Shown: in pieces, positions 1,354-38,409 of the stretch
Position numbering within the stretch: position 1 is the first letter of the stretch
How the letters are laid out: each line of letters begins with the position of its first letter
NCBI GenBank assembly: GCA_938082375.1
Contig: CALKCJ010000032.1
Span: forward strand, 1 to 44,306
Direction of reading: 5' to 3'
DNA length: 44,306 nucleotides
Origin: an uncultured Thermomicrobiaceae bacterium
GTDB lineage: Bacteria; Chloroflexota; Chloroflexia; Thermomicrobiales; Thermomicrobiaceae
Made by a program: the position numbers and the translations under genes
The notes under the pieces: generated by a model
What the model was told of the DNA's origin: nothing
Databases searched by the model: none
Seen by the model: the letters and a program-made list of their open reading frames with translations, nothing else

Positions 1354-2748
1354 TCAGCTCCCAGGCTGCGCCAGGGCGAGCAACCCGCGCACGTCCGGCG
1401 CCTCCTCGATCGCGGCGATCGCCGCGATGAGTTCTTCGACCCTTGCCAGGGGGAGCGCCAGGGATGCGCACTCGCGGAACTTGGCCAGCAGCTCGTCGCG
1501 GGTGAAGGGACGCTGGGGGCTGCCGCGCGCGAAGCTGGCCTGGGCGCTCAGGCTTCGGCCATCGTGAAGGCGCAGCGTGACCCGGGTGAACATCTGGGTG
1601 AACATCTGGTGGTAGCCGGCCGCCTCGGCTTCAGGGTCGATCGCGACTTCGACACGCGGTACCAGCTCGCGCACGTCGGGTTGTCGCACTCGCTCGTCGG
1701 TGAACTGGGCCAGACCAGCCGCCCGATCAAGCAGCGCCACGGCGACGGCGTAGGGGAGGCTGAACTTTGCCTGCAGCCCGTCGGTCGGGATGGCGTGCAG
1801 CAGCGCGTTCGGCATGTGCCGATTGACGCCGACCTGGATCGACTCGACCTGCTCTGAGTGCACGTCGTGCTCGTGCAGGAGGTCGAGCGAGGCGTCGATG
1901 GCCGGGTGCGTCAGCGATCCGGAGGGCGCCGGCTTGAGCGAGACGCCAGGCTGGAGCAGGCTCCAGGGGGTTGCCGAGCCGGCCGCGCACCACTGCCTCG
2001 TCGAAGCCCCCAGCGTAGGCGCTGCAGAAGCCGCGCGGCGCCTCCAGTACGTTCTCGGCCGCGGTGAACCCGGCAGCCGCGAGCTGCGCTGCCACTACAC
2101 CGTTCTCGGCCGCTCGCCCGGCGTGGAGCGGCTTGGTCATGGTTCCGAACTGCTCCCGCAGCCGGCCGGCCATCGAGGCCGCCACCGAGAGAGCCCGTGC
2201 AATGACCTCCGCATCGCGGGTCAAGAGCCAAACTGCCCCGGCGGCCGCGCCCAGCGCGCCGACCACGCCCGTCGTGTGGAAGCCGGCTTCGTAGAGCCGC
2301 GGGTTGGCGGCTTCCGCCAGCTTGCACGCTACCTCGACGCCGAGCGTGTACGCGGCCAGCGCCTCGCGGCTACTCGCGCCGGTCAGCTCGGCGAGCGCCA
2401 GGACGGCCGGCAGCACCGGTGCCGAAGGGTGGGTGAGCAGGCCATAGACCCGGTCTGGCCGCTCGGCGAGCTGGGTATCGTAGTCGAGCGCGTGGGCAGC
2501 GGCTCCGTTGGCCAGCGCTGCCTGCTGGGCCGGTGCCCGGACTGTCGAGCCGATCACCGTGGCTGAGCGGCCCCACCGGTGCTAGCGATCTGCTCGCGCA
2601 GGATGGCGCTCAGCGGTGCCCGTGACCCGGCGAGCGCCACGCCCAGCGTATCGAGGAGATGGGCGATCGCTTCCCGGCGCACGGCTTCCGGCGCTTCCTC
2701 CGGACGGAACGCGGCGATCCACTCGGCGACATGCCTGGTTAGGCTCAT
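1354..2748 (-). pseudogene. MmgE/PrpD family protein (2-methylcitrate dehydratase-like), two frameshifts
   Basis: Three overlapping reading frames on the minus strand join into one MmgE/PrpD protein of about 464 residues, the usual length of the family. The first piece (2748 to about 2570) ends AILREQIASTGG; the second (about 2565 to 1970) has ALANGAAAHALDYD, typical of the family; the third (about 1966 to 1354) has SGSLTHPAIDASLDL and the conserved DGLQAKFSLPYAVAVAL block. The first break fits loss of one base in the four-base G run (plus-strand CCCC at 2571-2574), which would restore GGGRSATVIGS. The second fits one extra base in the five-base run at 1966-1970, restoring GNPWSLLQPGVSLKP. 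The family includes 2-methylcitrate dehydratase, cis-aconitate decarboxylase and less defined proteins. Either a pseudogene or a gene with two sequencing errors. Confidence 0.85.
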
Positions 2749-2807
2749 CCTTGAGGCAATCCTACTTCCTCTCAGAGGTCGCTCCCGCGCCGAGGGTCAC
2801 CTCGCTC

Positions 2808-3341
2808 TCATCCCCTCATCGTGAGAGCGCCAAACGGGATCAGGATGATCGCATAGACGACGACCAGAGCGAGCCAGGAGAGAACGGCGGTAGCAATGGC
2901 GCGGCCGGTGGTGAAGTCGAGCGCCTGGCGGATCGCGACGACCGTCGTGACCAGCGTCCAGATCGCAACCACGAGTGAAATCAGCCCCCCGAGGAGCGGG
3001 ATCCAGCCGAGCACCAGCAGCAGGCGCGGCGACTGCGCAAAGCCGAGCGTCCGCAGGAGCTGACCCCACGTCGCCTGCGTTTGCGGCGTCGCGAGGAGCC
3101 GCGAGCCGACGAGGTAGGCGACGCCGGCATAGGCAACCCAACTGATTATGGCTGCGACGATGCCTCCGATGAAGGCGCCGATTCGGCCGGTACCGAGGGC
3201 ACCGATGCCAGCGGCGATAGCCCCGAGGACGACCACCAGCAGGGCAGCCGAGGTCGCTCCCTCGTCGTGCTCGACCGCCTCGTAGGTCGCGGTGTCCAGC
3301 CGCGCGGCGCCGATCATGCGCGTCGTCAGCGATGCTTGCAT
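2808..3341 (-). CDS. YIP1-family-like integral membrane protein
   Basis: A 177-residue, very hydrophobic protein with about five predicted membrane segments (roughly residues 31-50, 53-80, 103-120, 120-136 and 145-172). The N-terminal MIGAARLDTATYEAVEHDEGAT segment followed by paired helices resembles small bacterial YIP1 (DUF1282) proteins, whose function is not established. The start at 3341 is chosen because GGGAGGGG precedes it by a few bases; an upstream in-frame start at 3500 would add a non-hydrophobic, low-similarity leader. It is transcribed in the same direction as the broken MmgE/PrpD gene and as the oxidoreductase upstream at 3512-4849. Confidence 0.7.
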   Translation of the reverse strand: MQASLTTRMIGAARLDTATYEAVEHDEGATSAALLVVVLGAIAAGIGALGTGRIGAFIGGIVAAIISWVAYAGVAYLVGSRLLATPQTQATWGQLLRTLGFAQSPRLLLVLGWIPLLGGLISLVVAIWTLVTTVVAIRQALDFTTGRAIATAVLSWLALVVVYAIILIPFGALTMRG

Positions 3342-34078: not shown

Positions 34079-35188
34079 TCAGGCCAACAGCGACTCCTGA
34101 GCCAGCAGGCGGCCACGGTCGGTCAGCTCCAGCCGGCCGTTCTGCTGAGTGACCAACCCGCGCCCCTCGGCCAGGCTCACGACGCGGGTGGCGAACTTCC
34201 GATCCCAACGTAGCTCCTGCCAGAGGTGCTCCATCTGGAGCTCTGGCTCGCCGCCGGGCTGCCGCTCATGGTGGAGCAGGTGGATCGCCAGCATCCGTTG
34301 GGCGAACTCCCAGCGTTGGCGCACGCGGCGTCGCGCTGCGGCCACCAGGCCGCGCTCCGGCGCGAAGCACCAGGCCAGCCCGAAGATCACGCCGGCCATC
34401 GTCGCCATCGAACCGGCGATCGAGGCGTCGAGCAGATAGGCGAGCCAATAACCGGAGAGTGCCGCCGCGACGCCCAGTCCAACGCTGAGAAAAAGCATCC
34501 GCGCCAGGTCGTCGGTAAGCAGGTACGCGGCGGCGGCCGGAGCGATAAACAGCGCGACGGTCAGGATCGCGCCGACAGAATCGAAGGCGCCGACCGCAGT
34601 CAGCGAGGTGATGCCCATCAGCCCGTAGTGGATGGCCACCGGGGAGAAGCCGAGCGCGGCCGCCAGCCCTGGGTCGAAGGTGGCCAGCTTCAGCTCCTTG
34701 TAGAACAGGGTGATCAGGGCGGCGTTGATCAGCAGGATGACCCCGCCGGCGTACAGGCCCTTCGGGCCGATGTTCCATCCGGCGATGACGACCCGGTCGA
34801 AGGGGGCAAAGGCCAGCTCGCCCAGCAGCACCACGTCGGTGTCAAGGTGGACGCTACCGGCGTAGCGGGAGATCAGGATGACGCCGATGCTGAAGAGCGC
34901 GGGGAACACCAGTCCGATAGCGGCGTCCTCCCGTACCAGGCCAGTCCGGTGCAGCAGCTCGACCAGGAGCGCGGTGAGCAGGCCGGTGAGCGTCGCGCCG
35001 AGGATCAAGAGCGGCGAGTTGAGATCCTGGGTCAGGAAGAAGCCGACCACGATGCCGAGGAGCATCGCGTGGCTGATCGCGTCGCTGATCAGCGTCATCC
35101 GGCGCAGTACCAGGAAAGCGCCGGGCAGCGCGCAGGCGGCGGCGACGATCGCGGCGATGAGCTGGATCTCGACCTGCGGCGCGGTCAT
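34079..35188 (-). CDS. Metal ABC transporter permease with C-terminal winged-helix domain
   Basis: A 369-residue protein. Residues 1-280 are an ABC-3 (ZnuB/MntB/TroC) permease with about eight membrane segments: GAFLVLRRMTLISDAISHAML, GFSPVAIHYGLMGITSLTAVGAFDSVGAILTVAL. Residues about 285-369 are soluble: ELQMEHLWQELRWDRKFATRVVSLAEGRGLV then RLELTDRGRLLAQ, which reads as a winged helix-turn-helix similar to DtxR/MntR N-termini. Its start overlaps the previous permease stop as ATGA. The C-terminal domain could regulate transport by metal occupancy or be a fused transcription factor domain; function unknown. Confidence 0.85.
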   Translation of the reverse strand: MTAPQVEIQLIAAIVAAACALPGAFLVLRRMTLISDAISHAMLLGIVVGFFLTQDLNSPLLILGATLTGLLTALLVELLHRTGLVREDAAIGLVFPALFSIGVILISRYAGSVHLDTDVVLLGELAFAPFDRVVIAGWNIGPKGLYAGGVILLINAALITLFYKELKLATFDPGLAAALGFSPVAIHYGLMGITSLTAVGAFDSVGAILTVALFIAPAAAAYLLTDDLARMLFLSVGLGVAAALSGYWLAYLLDASIAGSMATMAGVIFGLAWCFAPERGLVAAARRRVRQRWEFAQRMLAIHLLHHERQPGGEPELQMEHLWQELRWDRKFATRVVSLAEGRGLVTQQNGRLELTDRGRLLAQESLLA

Positions 35189-36363
35189 GGCTGCCCCTCA
35201 CCCGTCACCTCACCCCCGCTCCCTGTCAGATATGCCGACACGTCGCCGGCCTTATTGGCCTCCGCCGCGGTCCGCACGCGGGCCATGCCCGCGGCCGTGA
35301 TGGCCCAGCGATCCGCGCCGACCTGCCGGACGTAGCCCGTCGACTCCAGGTCATGGAGCACGTGCTCGACCTGCTCCGGCGACCAACCCGAGGCGCGGAG
35401 CACGGCGCTCGGATGGCCGTGCTCGAGCGAGCCGTGGTGCTCGGCCAGCGCGGCGAGCTGCCGCAACATCCCTTCCGCCCGAACCTGGCCGCGCCGAGCC
35501 CGCGAGCGTGCCCAGTTCCAGACCAGCCCGCGGTTGGGAGCCAACAGCAGCGAGATGAGCACCAGGCCGCTCACGACCAGCACGATCGTCGGGCCGGTCG
35601 GGAGCCGCGGGGTCAGGCTGCTGAGCACCGCGCCGCTCATCCCGGCCATCACCCCGAACAGCGCGCTGAGCAGCACCATTAGGCTCAGCCGGTCAGTCCA
35701 CTGGCGCGCTGCCGCGGCCGGAGCCACCACCATCGCGCTCATCAGCACCACGCCGACCGTCTGGAGGCCAACCACGATCGCCAGCACGATCATCGAGATC
35801 AGGATCACCTCGAGCAAGCGGACGCGCAGGCCGAGCACGCGGGCGAAATCGGGGTCGAAGACGAGCAGCTTGAACTCCTTCCAGAGCAGCAGCACCGCCA
35901 GTAAGACGGCGAGCGTGCCGATGGCCATGACTTGGACATCACGGCGGAGGAGCGAGGCGGCCTGGCCGAAGAGGAAGCGATCGAGCCCGGCCTGGCTGGC
36001 GTCCGGCTGCTTCTGGATGAAGGTGAGCAACACCAGGCCGAAGCCGAAGAAGACCGAGAGGATCAGGCCGAGGGCGCTGTCGAGCTTGACGCGTGTGGTG
36101 CGGGTGATCGCGCTCACGAGCAGCGCGCCGAACCAGCCGGCCGCGACCGCGCCGGCCAGGAGCAGGGCCGACTCCTTGCTGCGGGTGAGCAGGAAGGCGA
36201 GCGCGATCCCTGGCAGCGCGGCGTGCGATATGGCGTCGCCGAGCAGGCTCTCGCGGCGGAGCACGGCGTAGGTGCCGACCACCCCGCTGCTCAGGCCGAG
36301 CAGCATCGCGCCCAGCGCCACGGTGCGCAGCGTGTAGTCCAATGCCAGATCAGGCAGCGCCAC
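35185..36363 (-). CDS. Metal ABC transporter permease with C-terminal winged-helix domain (second subunit)
   Basis: A 392-residue homologue of the neighbour. The membrane part has [47 protein letters not shown] and [25 protein letters not shown]. The soluble tail (about residues 290-370) has [32 protein letters not shown] and [10 protein letters not shown], again a winged helix like the one on the second permease. The gene overlaps the ATP-binding gene by 14 bases and the other permease by four, so the importer subunits are translationally coupled. The two permeases form a heterodimer in such systems (compare TroC/TroD). Confidence 0.85.
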
Positions 36364-37180
36364 GGGCGCCTCCTCCGCTGCTCGACCGGTCTGGGGTGAC
36401 GACTGTCGGGGCGGTCTCCTCCACCTCTCTGGCGAAGGCCGCCATCGCGAAGCGCCCGCCGTAGGTCAAGCGCAGGTTGTGCTCATTGAAGACCTGGGCC
36501 ACTGGCCCGCAGGCGATGCGCCGGACGTTGAGGAGCATGACCCAGTCGAAGTACTCCGGCACGGTCTGCAGGTCGTGGTGGACGGCAATCACGGTCTTGC
36601 CCTGGGCGCGGAGCTGTTGGAGTAGCATCACAATGGCGCGCTCCGTAAGGGCATCGACACCTTGGAAGGGCTCGTCCATGAGGTAGATATCGGCAGCCTG
36701 GACCAGCGCCCGGGCCAGGAAGACGCGCTGCTGCTGGCCGCCGGAGAGCTGACTGATCTGCCGGTCGCTGAGCTCGCGCATGCCCACCTGATCCAGCGCA
36801 GCCAGCGCCCGCTCCCGCTCCCGGCGGCCCGGGCGGCGGATCCAGCCCAGCTCCCCATAGGTGCCCATCATGACGACGTCGAGCACGCTAGCGGGGAAGT
36901 CCCAGTCCACGCTGCCGCGCTGCGGCACGTAGCTGATCCGGCGCCGCTGCTGCTCCACCGGCTCACCGAAGACCAGCACCTGCCCCGCTACCGGCCGGAG
37001 CAGTCCGAGGATCGCTTTGAGCAGCGTGGTCTTACCGGCGCCGTTCGGACCAACGATGGCCAGCAGTACCCCGGACGGGACGGTCAGATCGACGTCCCAG
37101 AGCGCCGGCCGCTCGCGGTAGGCGACCGTGAGATCTTGCACCGCAACGGCGGGAACCCCTTCGTTATGTCGATCAGCCAT
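36350..37180 (-). CDS. Metal ABC transporter ATP-binding protein
   Basis: A 276-residue ABC ATPase: Walker [18 protein letters not shown]-loop [13 protein letters not shown] (the VDWDFP after the Q-loop is typical of Zn/Mn importers such as MntB/ZnuC/TroB), signature [15 protein letters not shown], Walker [13 protein letters not shown], and H-loop TVIAVHHDL. Start 37180 follows GGAGAGGA; an upstream in-frame ATG at 37207 is possible. The C-terminal tail is longer than the minimal ABC domain. It lies between the binding protein and the permeases in one operon. Confidence 0.92.
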
Positions 37181-37216
37181 GCTCTGTCCTCTCCGGTCGA
37201 CAGGCATCGTCGCTGG

Positions 37217-38254
37217 TCAGCCCTTGCCGGCCAGCGCCTGCACGATCGTCTCGACATTAGAGCGCACCATGCCCACGTAGGTGCCGGCCAGTGTATCGGG
37301 ATCGCCGAGCGCGTCGGAGTAGAGCTGACCGCCGATCCTCACCTCGAAGCTGCGAGCGCGCACCGCTTCCTGCACCGCTTCAATGAAGCGAGGCGGCACC
37401 GAAGTCTCGACGAAGATGGCCGGGATGCGCCGCTCGACGATCAGGTCGGCCAGCGCCTGCACGTCGGCGACTCCGGCCTCGGCTGCCGTGCTCACGCCCT
37501 GGAGCCCGTAGACCTCGAAGCCGTAGGCACGGGCGAAGTAACCGAAGGCATCGTGGGCGGTGATCAGCACGCGCCGCTCGGGCGGGATCTTCGCGGCCTC
37601 GTGGCGAACCCAGCGGTCGAGTTCGTCCAGCTCGGCCAGGTAACGTTCGGCATTCGCCTGGTAGACGGCGGCGTAGGTCGGATCGACTGTGATCAGCCCG
37701 TCGCGGACAGCCGCGACCGCAATCATCCAGAGCCGGACATCGAACCAGACATGAGGGTCGTATGCCCCTTCGAACTCGGGCGGCCGGCGCAGGAGCGAGG
37801 GGTCGATCCGCTCGGCGACTGCGACCGTCGCTACCCGCTCGCCGACCCGGGCGAGCACGTGGCCCATCTTCCCCTCGAGGTGGAGACCGTTGTAGAAGAT
37901 GATGTCGGCGCTGGCCAAACGGAGGACGTCGCCCTCGCTGGCCTTGTAGAGGTGCGGGTCGATCCCTGGTCCCATTAGCGTCACGACCTCGACCCGGTCG
38001 CCGCCGACCTGACGGACAGCATCGGCGACGATGGTGGTGGTCGCCACCACGCGCACCTGCCGGGTGGCGATGTCCCCGGTCTGGCCGGCAACTTGGCGGC
38101 AGGCGGCAAGCGAGCTAGTTAAGACCAGGGTGACGAGGCTGAGCACAAGAAGAGACAAGAGCCGTGCCCGGCGCTTGGTCGCCGCCAGTTGGGGGCCTCG
38201 CCCCCGCGTGTGTTGTATACGTTCGCTTCTACCCGCTAGACACCTGATCTGCAC
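37217..38254 (-). CDS. Metal ABC transporter substrate-binding lipoprotein (ZnuA/TroA/MntC type)
   Basis: A 345-residue lipoprotein: basic N-terminus, hydrophobic LLSLLVLSLVTLVLTSS, lipobox LAAC. The binding cleft ligands are visible: DPHLYKASEGD (His), YDPHVWFDVR (His), IFVETSVPPR (Glu) and LYSDALGDPDT (Asp), the His-His-Glu-Asp set seen in Mn/Zn/Fe-type cluster 9 proteins. No His-rich loop is present, which argues for manganese or iron rather than a high-affinity zinc chaperone, but this is not decisive. GTG at 38254 follows GAGG; a TTG at 38260 is an alternative. Confidence 0.88.
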   Translation of the reverse strand: MQIRCLAGRSERIQHTRGRGPQLAATKRRARLLSLLVLSLVTLVLTSSLAACRQVAGQTGDIATRQVRVVATTTIVADAVRQVGGDRVEVVTLMGPGIDPHLYKASEGDVLRLASADIIFYNGLHLEGKMGHVLARVGERVATVAVAERIDPSLLRRPPEFEGAYDPHVWFDVRLWMIAVAAVRDGLITVDPTYAAVYQANAERYLAELDELDRWVRHEAAKIPPERRVLITAHDAFGYFARAYGFEVYGLQGVSTAAEAGVADVQALADLIVERRIPAIFVETSVPPRFIEAVQEAVRARSFEVRIGGQLYSDALGDPDTLAGTYVGMVRSNVETIVQALAGKG

Positions 38255-38355
38255 TGCCAAGCCTCGCCGATATCCGCTACCCGTGCCGTTCGGTCTGATC
38301 GCCCCTTTCTCGCTCCCGATCGGGCGGGCACCGCTTCCTCGGCCGACCGGCGAGA

Positions 38356-38369
38356 TTAGATAACGCTAA
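38356..38369. promoter_or_regulatory. DtxR/MntR-like operator (TTAG-N6-CTAA)
   Basis: The 14-base inverted repeat TTAG-ATAACG-CTAA lies directly downstream of the -10 box of the metal importer promoter (38381-38386, minus strand), so a bound repressor would overlap the transcription start. TTAG...CTAA is the half-site pattern of DtxR/IdeR/MntR-family operators. That a metal-dependent repressor uses it is inference; no free repressor gene is in the window. Confidence 0.5.
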
Positions 38370-38380
38370 ATTCTGGCTTG

Positions 38381-38409
38381 AGGATAGCTACCCTCACCGG
38401 AGTTGTCAA
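38381..38409 (-). promoter_or_regulatory. Promoter of the metal importer operon
   Basis: On the minus strand TTGACA (38409-38404), a 17-base spacer, and TATCCT (38386-38381) match sigma70-type elements (six of six and four of six). The start site would fall near 38374, giving a leader of about 120 bases before the binding-protein start at 38254. Confidence 0.6.

Follow-up and report, generated by a model that had tools for sequence, protein, structure and literature searches.

In Deinococcus radiodurans, the DtxR-family protein DR2539 (MntR) is described as an Mn- and Fe-dependent repressor that binds an inverted repeat in the promoter of the Mn importer gene mntH (PMC3327659). In Treponema, a TroA-type operon, troABCD(R), is placed under TroR, likewise a DtxR-family repressor dependent on Mn and Fe (PMC2628430), and in Bacillus subtilis MntR has an ABC importer (mntABCD) and an Nramp importer (mntH) for Mn as its pair of targets (PMC6860424). 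Actinobacterial IdeR/DtxR regulators use half sites of the CCTAA type; here the 14-bp consensus proposed for a single dimer, TTAGGNNNNCCTAA, fits the pattern TTAG-N6-CTAA, and IdeR binding to such a single-dimer site has been demonstrated (PMC8464063).

The stretch of DNA analysed here in its entirety, 44,306 nucleotides from an uncultured Thermomicrobiaceae bacterium (hereafter the window), shares a feature with each of these systems: a TTAG-N6-CTAA palindrome lies next to the promoter of a TroA-type importer operon, and in relatives the same palindrome lies at an Nramp gene. Judged from the sequence, the palindrome is very probably the operator for one dimer of the genome's single full-length DtxR/MntR-family repressor, which would control the importer in response to Mn (possibly Fe).

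Promoter, box and importer operon

On the minus strand, a -35 and a -10 hexamer (read directly and recomputed) precede the palindrome, hereafter the box, which starts 11 nt past the -10 hexamer. The initial annotation had described TTGACA-17-TATCCT followed by TTAG-N6-CTAA about 12 bases on, and this description is accurate, the box beginning at the 12th base after the -10 hexamer. The elements of the locus are as follows.

38404..38409, minus strand: -35 hexamer TTGACA, also in 10/10 orthologous upstream regions
38381..38386, minus strand: -10 hexamer TATCCT, with a 17-bp spacer to the -35 hexamer
38356..38369, no strand given: operator TTAG-N6-CTAA (TTAGCGTTATCTAA on the minus strand), predicted one-dimer site of the MntR/DtxR family
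37217..38260, minus strand: substrate-binding protein (SBP) of the TroA/ZnuA family (PF01297, E 3.9e-84; best PDB match 1toa, TroA, 297 bits)
36350..37207, minus strand: ABC ATPase of the metal importer (PF00005)
35185..36363, minus strand: ABC-3 permease 1, with a C-terminal soluble tail (PF00950)
34079..35188, minus strand: ABC-3 permease 2, with a C-terminal tail kept in relatives (PF00950)

The dyad extends slightly beyond its eight fixed bases (AATTTAG-N6-CTAAT) and has the form of a DtxR/MntR-family operator, namely TTAG(G)-N-(C)CTAA with six bases between TTAG and CTAA. Genome-wide, four sites match AATTTAG-N6-CTAAATT with up to three mismatches; the window site has two and the other three have three each. 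A search of the whole window with Rfam returned zero matches at gathering scores, so that a known Mn riboswitch was not found in the leader.

Downstream of the box, a single operon of four genes in the same direction (38260-34079, minus strand) encodes a TroA-family SBP, an ATPase and two ABC-3 permeases, which is the composition of a TroABCD-type importer. The start codon of the SBP gene is uncertain, TTG at 38260 (as listed) or GTG at 38254. The closest solved relative of the SBP is TroA of Treponema pallidum, and the next-best protein scores 193 bits. Gene order is identical in 11/11 relative loci fetched, one of which is cut by a contig end. Both permeases carry soluble tails of about 100 residues with weak, below-cut-off winged-helix matches. 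Across the intergenic region, a dCTP deaminase-like gene (PF22769; 38714-39286, plus strand) is divergent from the importer.

Recurrence of the box in the family and in other phyla

In the 21 genomes of the family that were searched, the exact box was present upstream of the orthologous importer at all ten loci with upstream DNA, and each of these regions contains TTGACA with a -10 hexamer (TATCCT, TATAGT or TAGACT) at 17-bp spacing. TTAG and CTAA are constant and the N6 core varies between genera; the ten loci are related and therefore count as about three lineages, not ten. The box overlaps or adjoins a sigma-70-type promoter in all ten orthologues, its position being different in the genus g4: it starts 11 nt past the -10 hexamer in seven loci and ends 2 nt before the -35 hexamer in the three g4 loci. 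The initial proposal that the box overlaps the start site would fit 7/10 loci and does not extend to g4, where the box lies just upstream of the -35 hexamer and the steric details may therefore differ.

Altogether the 21 genomes contain 27 exact sites, with 10 at the importer, 7 at Nramp genes and 10 elsewhere. In genera g5 and g6, where an importer orthologue was not found at E 1e-60, the exact box stands just upstream of Nramp/MntH in 7/7 genomes in which Nramp was found; one further genome, G016 (54% complete), had neither. The Nramp genes of the g4 genomes G007 and G009 have a one-mismatch box. In the window's own genome, the best match upstream of Nramp/MntH has three mismatches, sod and ferritin have no box upstream with up to two mismatches allowed (gene starts checked), and FeoB was not found. 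Elsewhere in the window's genus, the Nramp gene of G012 has no box, that of G011 is too close to a contig end, and G010 gave no Nramp match. With a single exact site in the genome and its mntH, sod and ferritin genes free of the box, the regulon here amounts to one operon by the exact pattern. The recurrence at metal genes that had been put forward as a check is thus found in part: the box recurs at orthologous importers, at mntH in g5/g6 and at genes for MntR homologues elsewhere, and it does not recur at the genome's own mntH, sod and ferritin genes.

Neighbouring proteins were scanned at seven of the ten sites elsewhere; L045 and L058 lie outside the scan, and L048 is the same site as L046. 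Five of the seven (all but L049 and L060) have no metal-transport family among the proteins scanned, and one of the ten could be matched to a metal transporter family. This is L049 (position 1501; G017:C1:677746), where a ZIP-family transporter gene, a possible additional regulon member in g5, follows the exact box at a distance of about 260 nt. At L060, a gene for an HMA-domain protein lies about 450 nt downstream of the box. L046 and L048 (G013:C1:1362508 and G015:C1:24629), from two g5 genomes, share one exact box, which at L046 lies about 200 nt upstream of a gene for a chemotaxis-receptor signalling domain. L053 (position 1448; G004:C463:3447) is a near-perfect extended box, TATTTAG-N6-CTAAATTA, upstream of a beta-lactamase family gene (PF00144). 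In G004 (87% complete) no importer orthologue was detected, and its two boxes are at no metal-transport genes among those scanned. The exact box is absent from G001 and G003 (78% and 70% complete).

Beyond the family, a named genome collection was scanned, and the best 80 of 426 relatives, 78 of them with upstream DNA, were taken for analysis. Among these best 80 of 426, the exact box occurs in the 450 nt preceding the SBP match at 29/78 loci, or at 24/73 when five loci of the family itself are left out. Corresponding figures for the 29/78 are a mean of 0.27 in shuffled sequences (maximum 2 in 100 shuffles), 0/78 within genes and 3/78 for the reversed pattern. The count also depends sharply on spacing in this same set (best 80 of 426): with six bases between the half sites 29/78 loci are found, and every other spacing from 0 to 15 yields 0-4 loci. 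Allowing one mismatch raises the count to 38/78 (again among the best 80 of 426) against 14/78 for the reversed pattern; since the latter figure is already so high, one-mismatch matches were not accepted as strong evidence. At class level, the exact box was seen at 10/23 loci and a box within one mismatch at 19/23, figures that come without a separate control and from genomes that may overlap the named set.

The remaining 49/78 named loci (best 80 of 426) lack the exact box before the SBP gene, and at 21 of these the box is found at a regulator gene instead. A homologue of the regulator described below is present at 37/103 loci, and the count covers the 30 in which it precedes the SBP gene; these include L155 and L115, where the gap between regulator and SBP genes exceeds 1 kb, and one pair that is a duplicate. 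The exact box lies upstream of the regulator gene at 21/30 and a box with at most one mismatch at 26/30, against 1 and 4 for the reversed control; with two weaker homologues added, the counts are 22/32 and 27/32. The loci with an exact box upstream of the SBP and those with one upstream of the regulator form disjoint sets, so that 50/78 named loci (51 with L167; best 80 of 426) have the box at one or the other. The box thus recurs at Mn importers or regulator genes of other genomes, and nothing ties box and regulator together more strongly than its presence upstream of regulator homologues. In L167, a Candidatus Woesearchaeota archaeon record, the regulator match is preceded at 39 nt by an exact box, TTAGGTTAACCTAA; as the record is archaeal, the site may reach beyond bacteria.

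The proposed regulator, its probable metal and alternative explanations

The genome has a single full DtxR-family gene (G000:C20:29635-30297), situated outside the window on another contig, and its product has the domains of the family (PF01325, 68.7 bits; PF02742, 108.7 bits; FeoA, 65 bits). PF01325 also hits two other genes (28.2 and 27.6 bits; cut-off 26), which fit MarR and GntR models better and were rejected. A single orthologue of the regulator is found in 19/21 family genomes, the remaining two being 70% and 54% complete, and none of the 18 family orthologues read has a box, even with one mismatch allowed, in the 300 nt before the gene. The best PDB matches are 5zr4 (168 bits), which we take to be MntR (Rv2788) of Mycobacterium tuberculosis, and then 8pvt, presumably DR2539 of Deinococcus. 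The NCBIfam MntR model NF047407 scores 255.4 bits, under its cut-off of 350, and is still the regulator's best NCBIfam match.

Promoter, box, operon, conservation and, in other lineages, the association of the box with the regulator gene can be read from the sequences; from these we infer the start site (predicted near 38374, minus strand), the binding and the metal. With sufficient Mn(II) (possibly also Fe(II)) in the cytosol, a metal-loaded dimer would occupy TTAG-N6-CTAA at about +5 to +18 and stop sigma-70-type initiation or clearance from TTGACA-17-TATCCT; when metal is scarce, the dimer would release the box and the importer would be made. In g4, a dimer just upstream of the -35 hexamer could likewise hinder the polymerase. 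That the effect would be repression is suggested by the logic of an importer and by the precedents of DR2539 and TroR. The view of the initial annotation that the importer is under a DtxR/IdeR/MntR-like operator, with Mn or Fe as the metal, gains support from the box at orthologues, at mntH in g5/g6 and at genes for MntR homologues.

As regards the metal, three things speak for Mn rather than Fe, namely that the importer is of the TroA type, that its partner in relatives is an Nramp importer and that the regulator carries acidic residues; Fe is possible. The zinc-type NCBIfam model that fits the SBP best, below its cut-off, weighs against taking Mn as settled. The ligands of DtxR-type iron regulators, Met10 and Cys102 in what we assume to be their numbering, are absent, Asp being present at both positions of the regulator. 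The residues aligned with Asp8 and Glu99, which are conserved in MntR (PMC6860424), are Asp and Asp in 18/18 family orthologues read; a DtxR-like Met ligand is named in PMC2628430.

These residues also bear on the alternative that survives best, which overlaps with the preferred one: the regulator could in effect be an iron sensor resembling IdeR/DtxR, and the importer could mainly carry Fe. TTAGGNNNNCCTAA has been published as an IdeR half site (PMC8464063), and Deinococcus DR2539 is responsive to Mn as well as Fe (PMC3327659). We nevertheless consider an iron sensor unlikely, since the regulator has Asp rather than Met at the equivalent of MntR position 8 and Asp at that of position 99, the best match here to the 19-bp two-dimer IdeR operator has seven mismatches, the boxes of relatives are at TroA-type and Nramp importers, and the genome's own ferritin gene has no box.

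A box for a regulator of the Fur/Zur family, with the importer carrying zinc, is far less probable still. Three Fur-family genes (PF01475) are present in the genome, the SBP belongs to the Pfam family of ZnuA, and among NCBIfam models it fits AztC, a zinc model, best, at 254 bits and thus under the cut-off of 350. Against this, a second SBP cluster in the genome adjoins a Fur-family gene and carries a different box, TGAGAC-TCG-GTATCA; a box resembling TGATAC-N3-GTATCA, a Zur-like consensus composed from this analysis's own loci, is absent from the 446-nt upstream region with up to three mismatches; and the TTAG box travels with DtxR-family genes. In the second cluster (L007, positions 1466-3083; G000:C18, about 45540-47160), the Fur-family gene comes first, and the cluster's box separates it from the gene for the second metal-binding protein, which includes a His-rich stretch. 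It is a probable Zur and zinc importer pair, and is a better zinc candidate than the operon with the TTAG box. Three g5 loci have TGATAC-N3-GTATCA, which the box of this cluster resembles, and one g6 locus has a similar sequence, upstream of related genes.

Just as improbable is a role of the permeases themselves, in which their C-terminal tails would act as the repressor in the manner of YtgR, which in Chlamydia is cleaved from YtgC, a permease-DtxR fusion (PMC5599777). The tails of both permeases have the weak winged-helix matches mentioned above, and that of permease 2 is present in ten relatives aligned; yet neither tail has a DtxR-family match at E up to 5, that of permease 1 has no match in three g4 loci, and a complete DtxR-family regulator exists whose homologue is next to the box elsewhere.

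In favour of a chance palindrome close to a promoter one can cite its mere eight fixed bases, but the idea is practically dismissed by the retention of the box in 10/10 orthologues despite a diverged core, the exact spacing preference and the recurrence across phyla, conservation already making it very unlikely. The exact pattern is a single copy in the 3,358,541 bases of the assembly, and chance would give 0.46 (tetramer product) to 2.07 (Markov) exact sites per genome of the window's composition, so that the single copy in itself is no proof; per 400 bp, 0.00025 exact boxes are expected. It is the position and the conservation of the box that constitute evidence beyond chance. A special avoidance of the box was rejected as an explanation of its scarcity, as the expectation itself is just about 2 (Markov) or 0.46 (tetramer product). 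The reversed pattern, with 2 to 59 sites per family genome against 0 to 3 boxes, is for the same reason a poor yardstick.

Family-specific traits and known systems

The preferred interpretation, a DtxR/MntR-family operator at a TroABCD-type importer whose metal is probably Mn, can be extended to the differences between the family and other lineages. Position 5 of the box is C in 15/17 family boxes and in 2/24 boxes beside regulator genes elsewhere, and position 10 is C in 0/17 and 18/24, respectively; the compared boxes share ancestry, and these counts are therefore not independent. The family's recognition helix, VQSPSVTNML, has an Asn that is present in 18/18 family regulators and in 0/30 others, which have Gly (16/30, the commonest), Ser, Glu, Asp or Ala at this position. 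The box stands at the ABC importer in three genera and at the Nramp importer in two others. Tentatively, and with more doubt than conviction, we suggest that in this family of Chloroflexota the base preference of the MntR operator and the recognition helix may have changed together, and that a single main operator may have passed between importer types. If true, a regulon of about one operon would have moved between analogous transporters with the regulator unchanged.

A literature search, mostly without full texts, found no report of a TTAG-N6-CTAA operator in this bacterial group. The analysis links a hitherto unstudied importer of Thermomicrobia-like bacteria to a likely regulator and a likely metal, Mn. 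It also indicates that TTAG-N6-CTAA, known from the literature as an IdeR half site, is found at many TroA-type and some Nramp importers as well as at MntR-like genes in several phyla; with so simple a pattern, Mn uptake could be annotated in uncultured lineages.

Differences from the described systems concern targets, operator sequence and the place of the regulator gene. In D. radiodurans, mntH is the characterised target of DR2539 and the mntABC promoters are a target of a Fur homologue (PMC3327659), whereas here the box is at the ABC operon. The site in the window differs from IdeR/DtxR operators in having no overlapping second dimer site (seven mismatches to the 19-mer), in the preference of the family boxes for C, not G, at position 5 (15/17) and in its target, a Mn-type importer. 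The operator sequence of B. subtilis MntR is different (PMC11416365), and that protein, unlike the regulator here, is described as having no SH3-like domain (PMC6860424). M. tuberculosis MntR is the regulator's best PDB match, but the oligonucleotides assayed with it have no TTAG-N6-CTAA, and its binding to them was absent or unclear (PMC11416365). In Treponema, the operator, a dyad of 18 bp, is built from other half sites and troR lies inside the operon, unlike the regulator gene here, which is on another contig; as in the window's family, the spacing of promoter and operator varies, in that case between two species (PMC2628430). The switch proposed here is well supported but of an ordinary type, one that also occurs near comparable importers of several further bacterial phyla.
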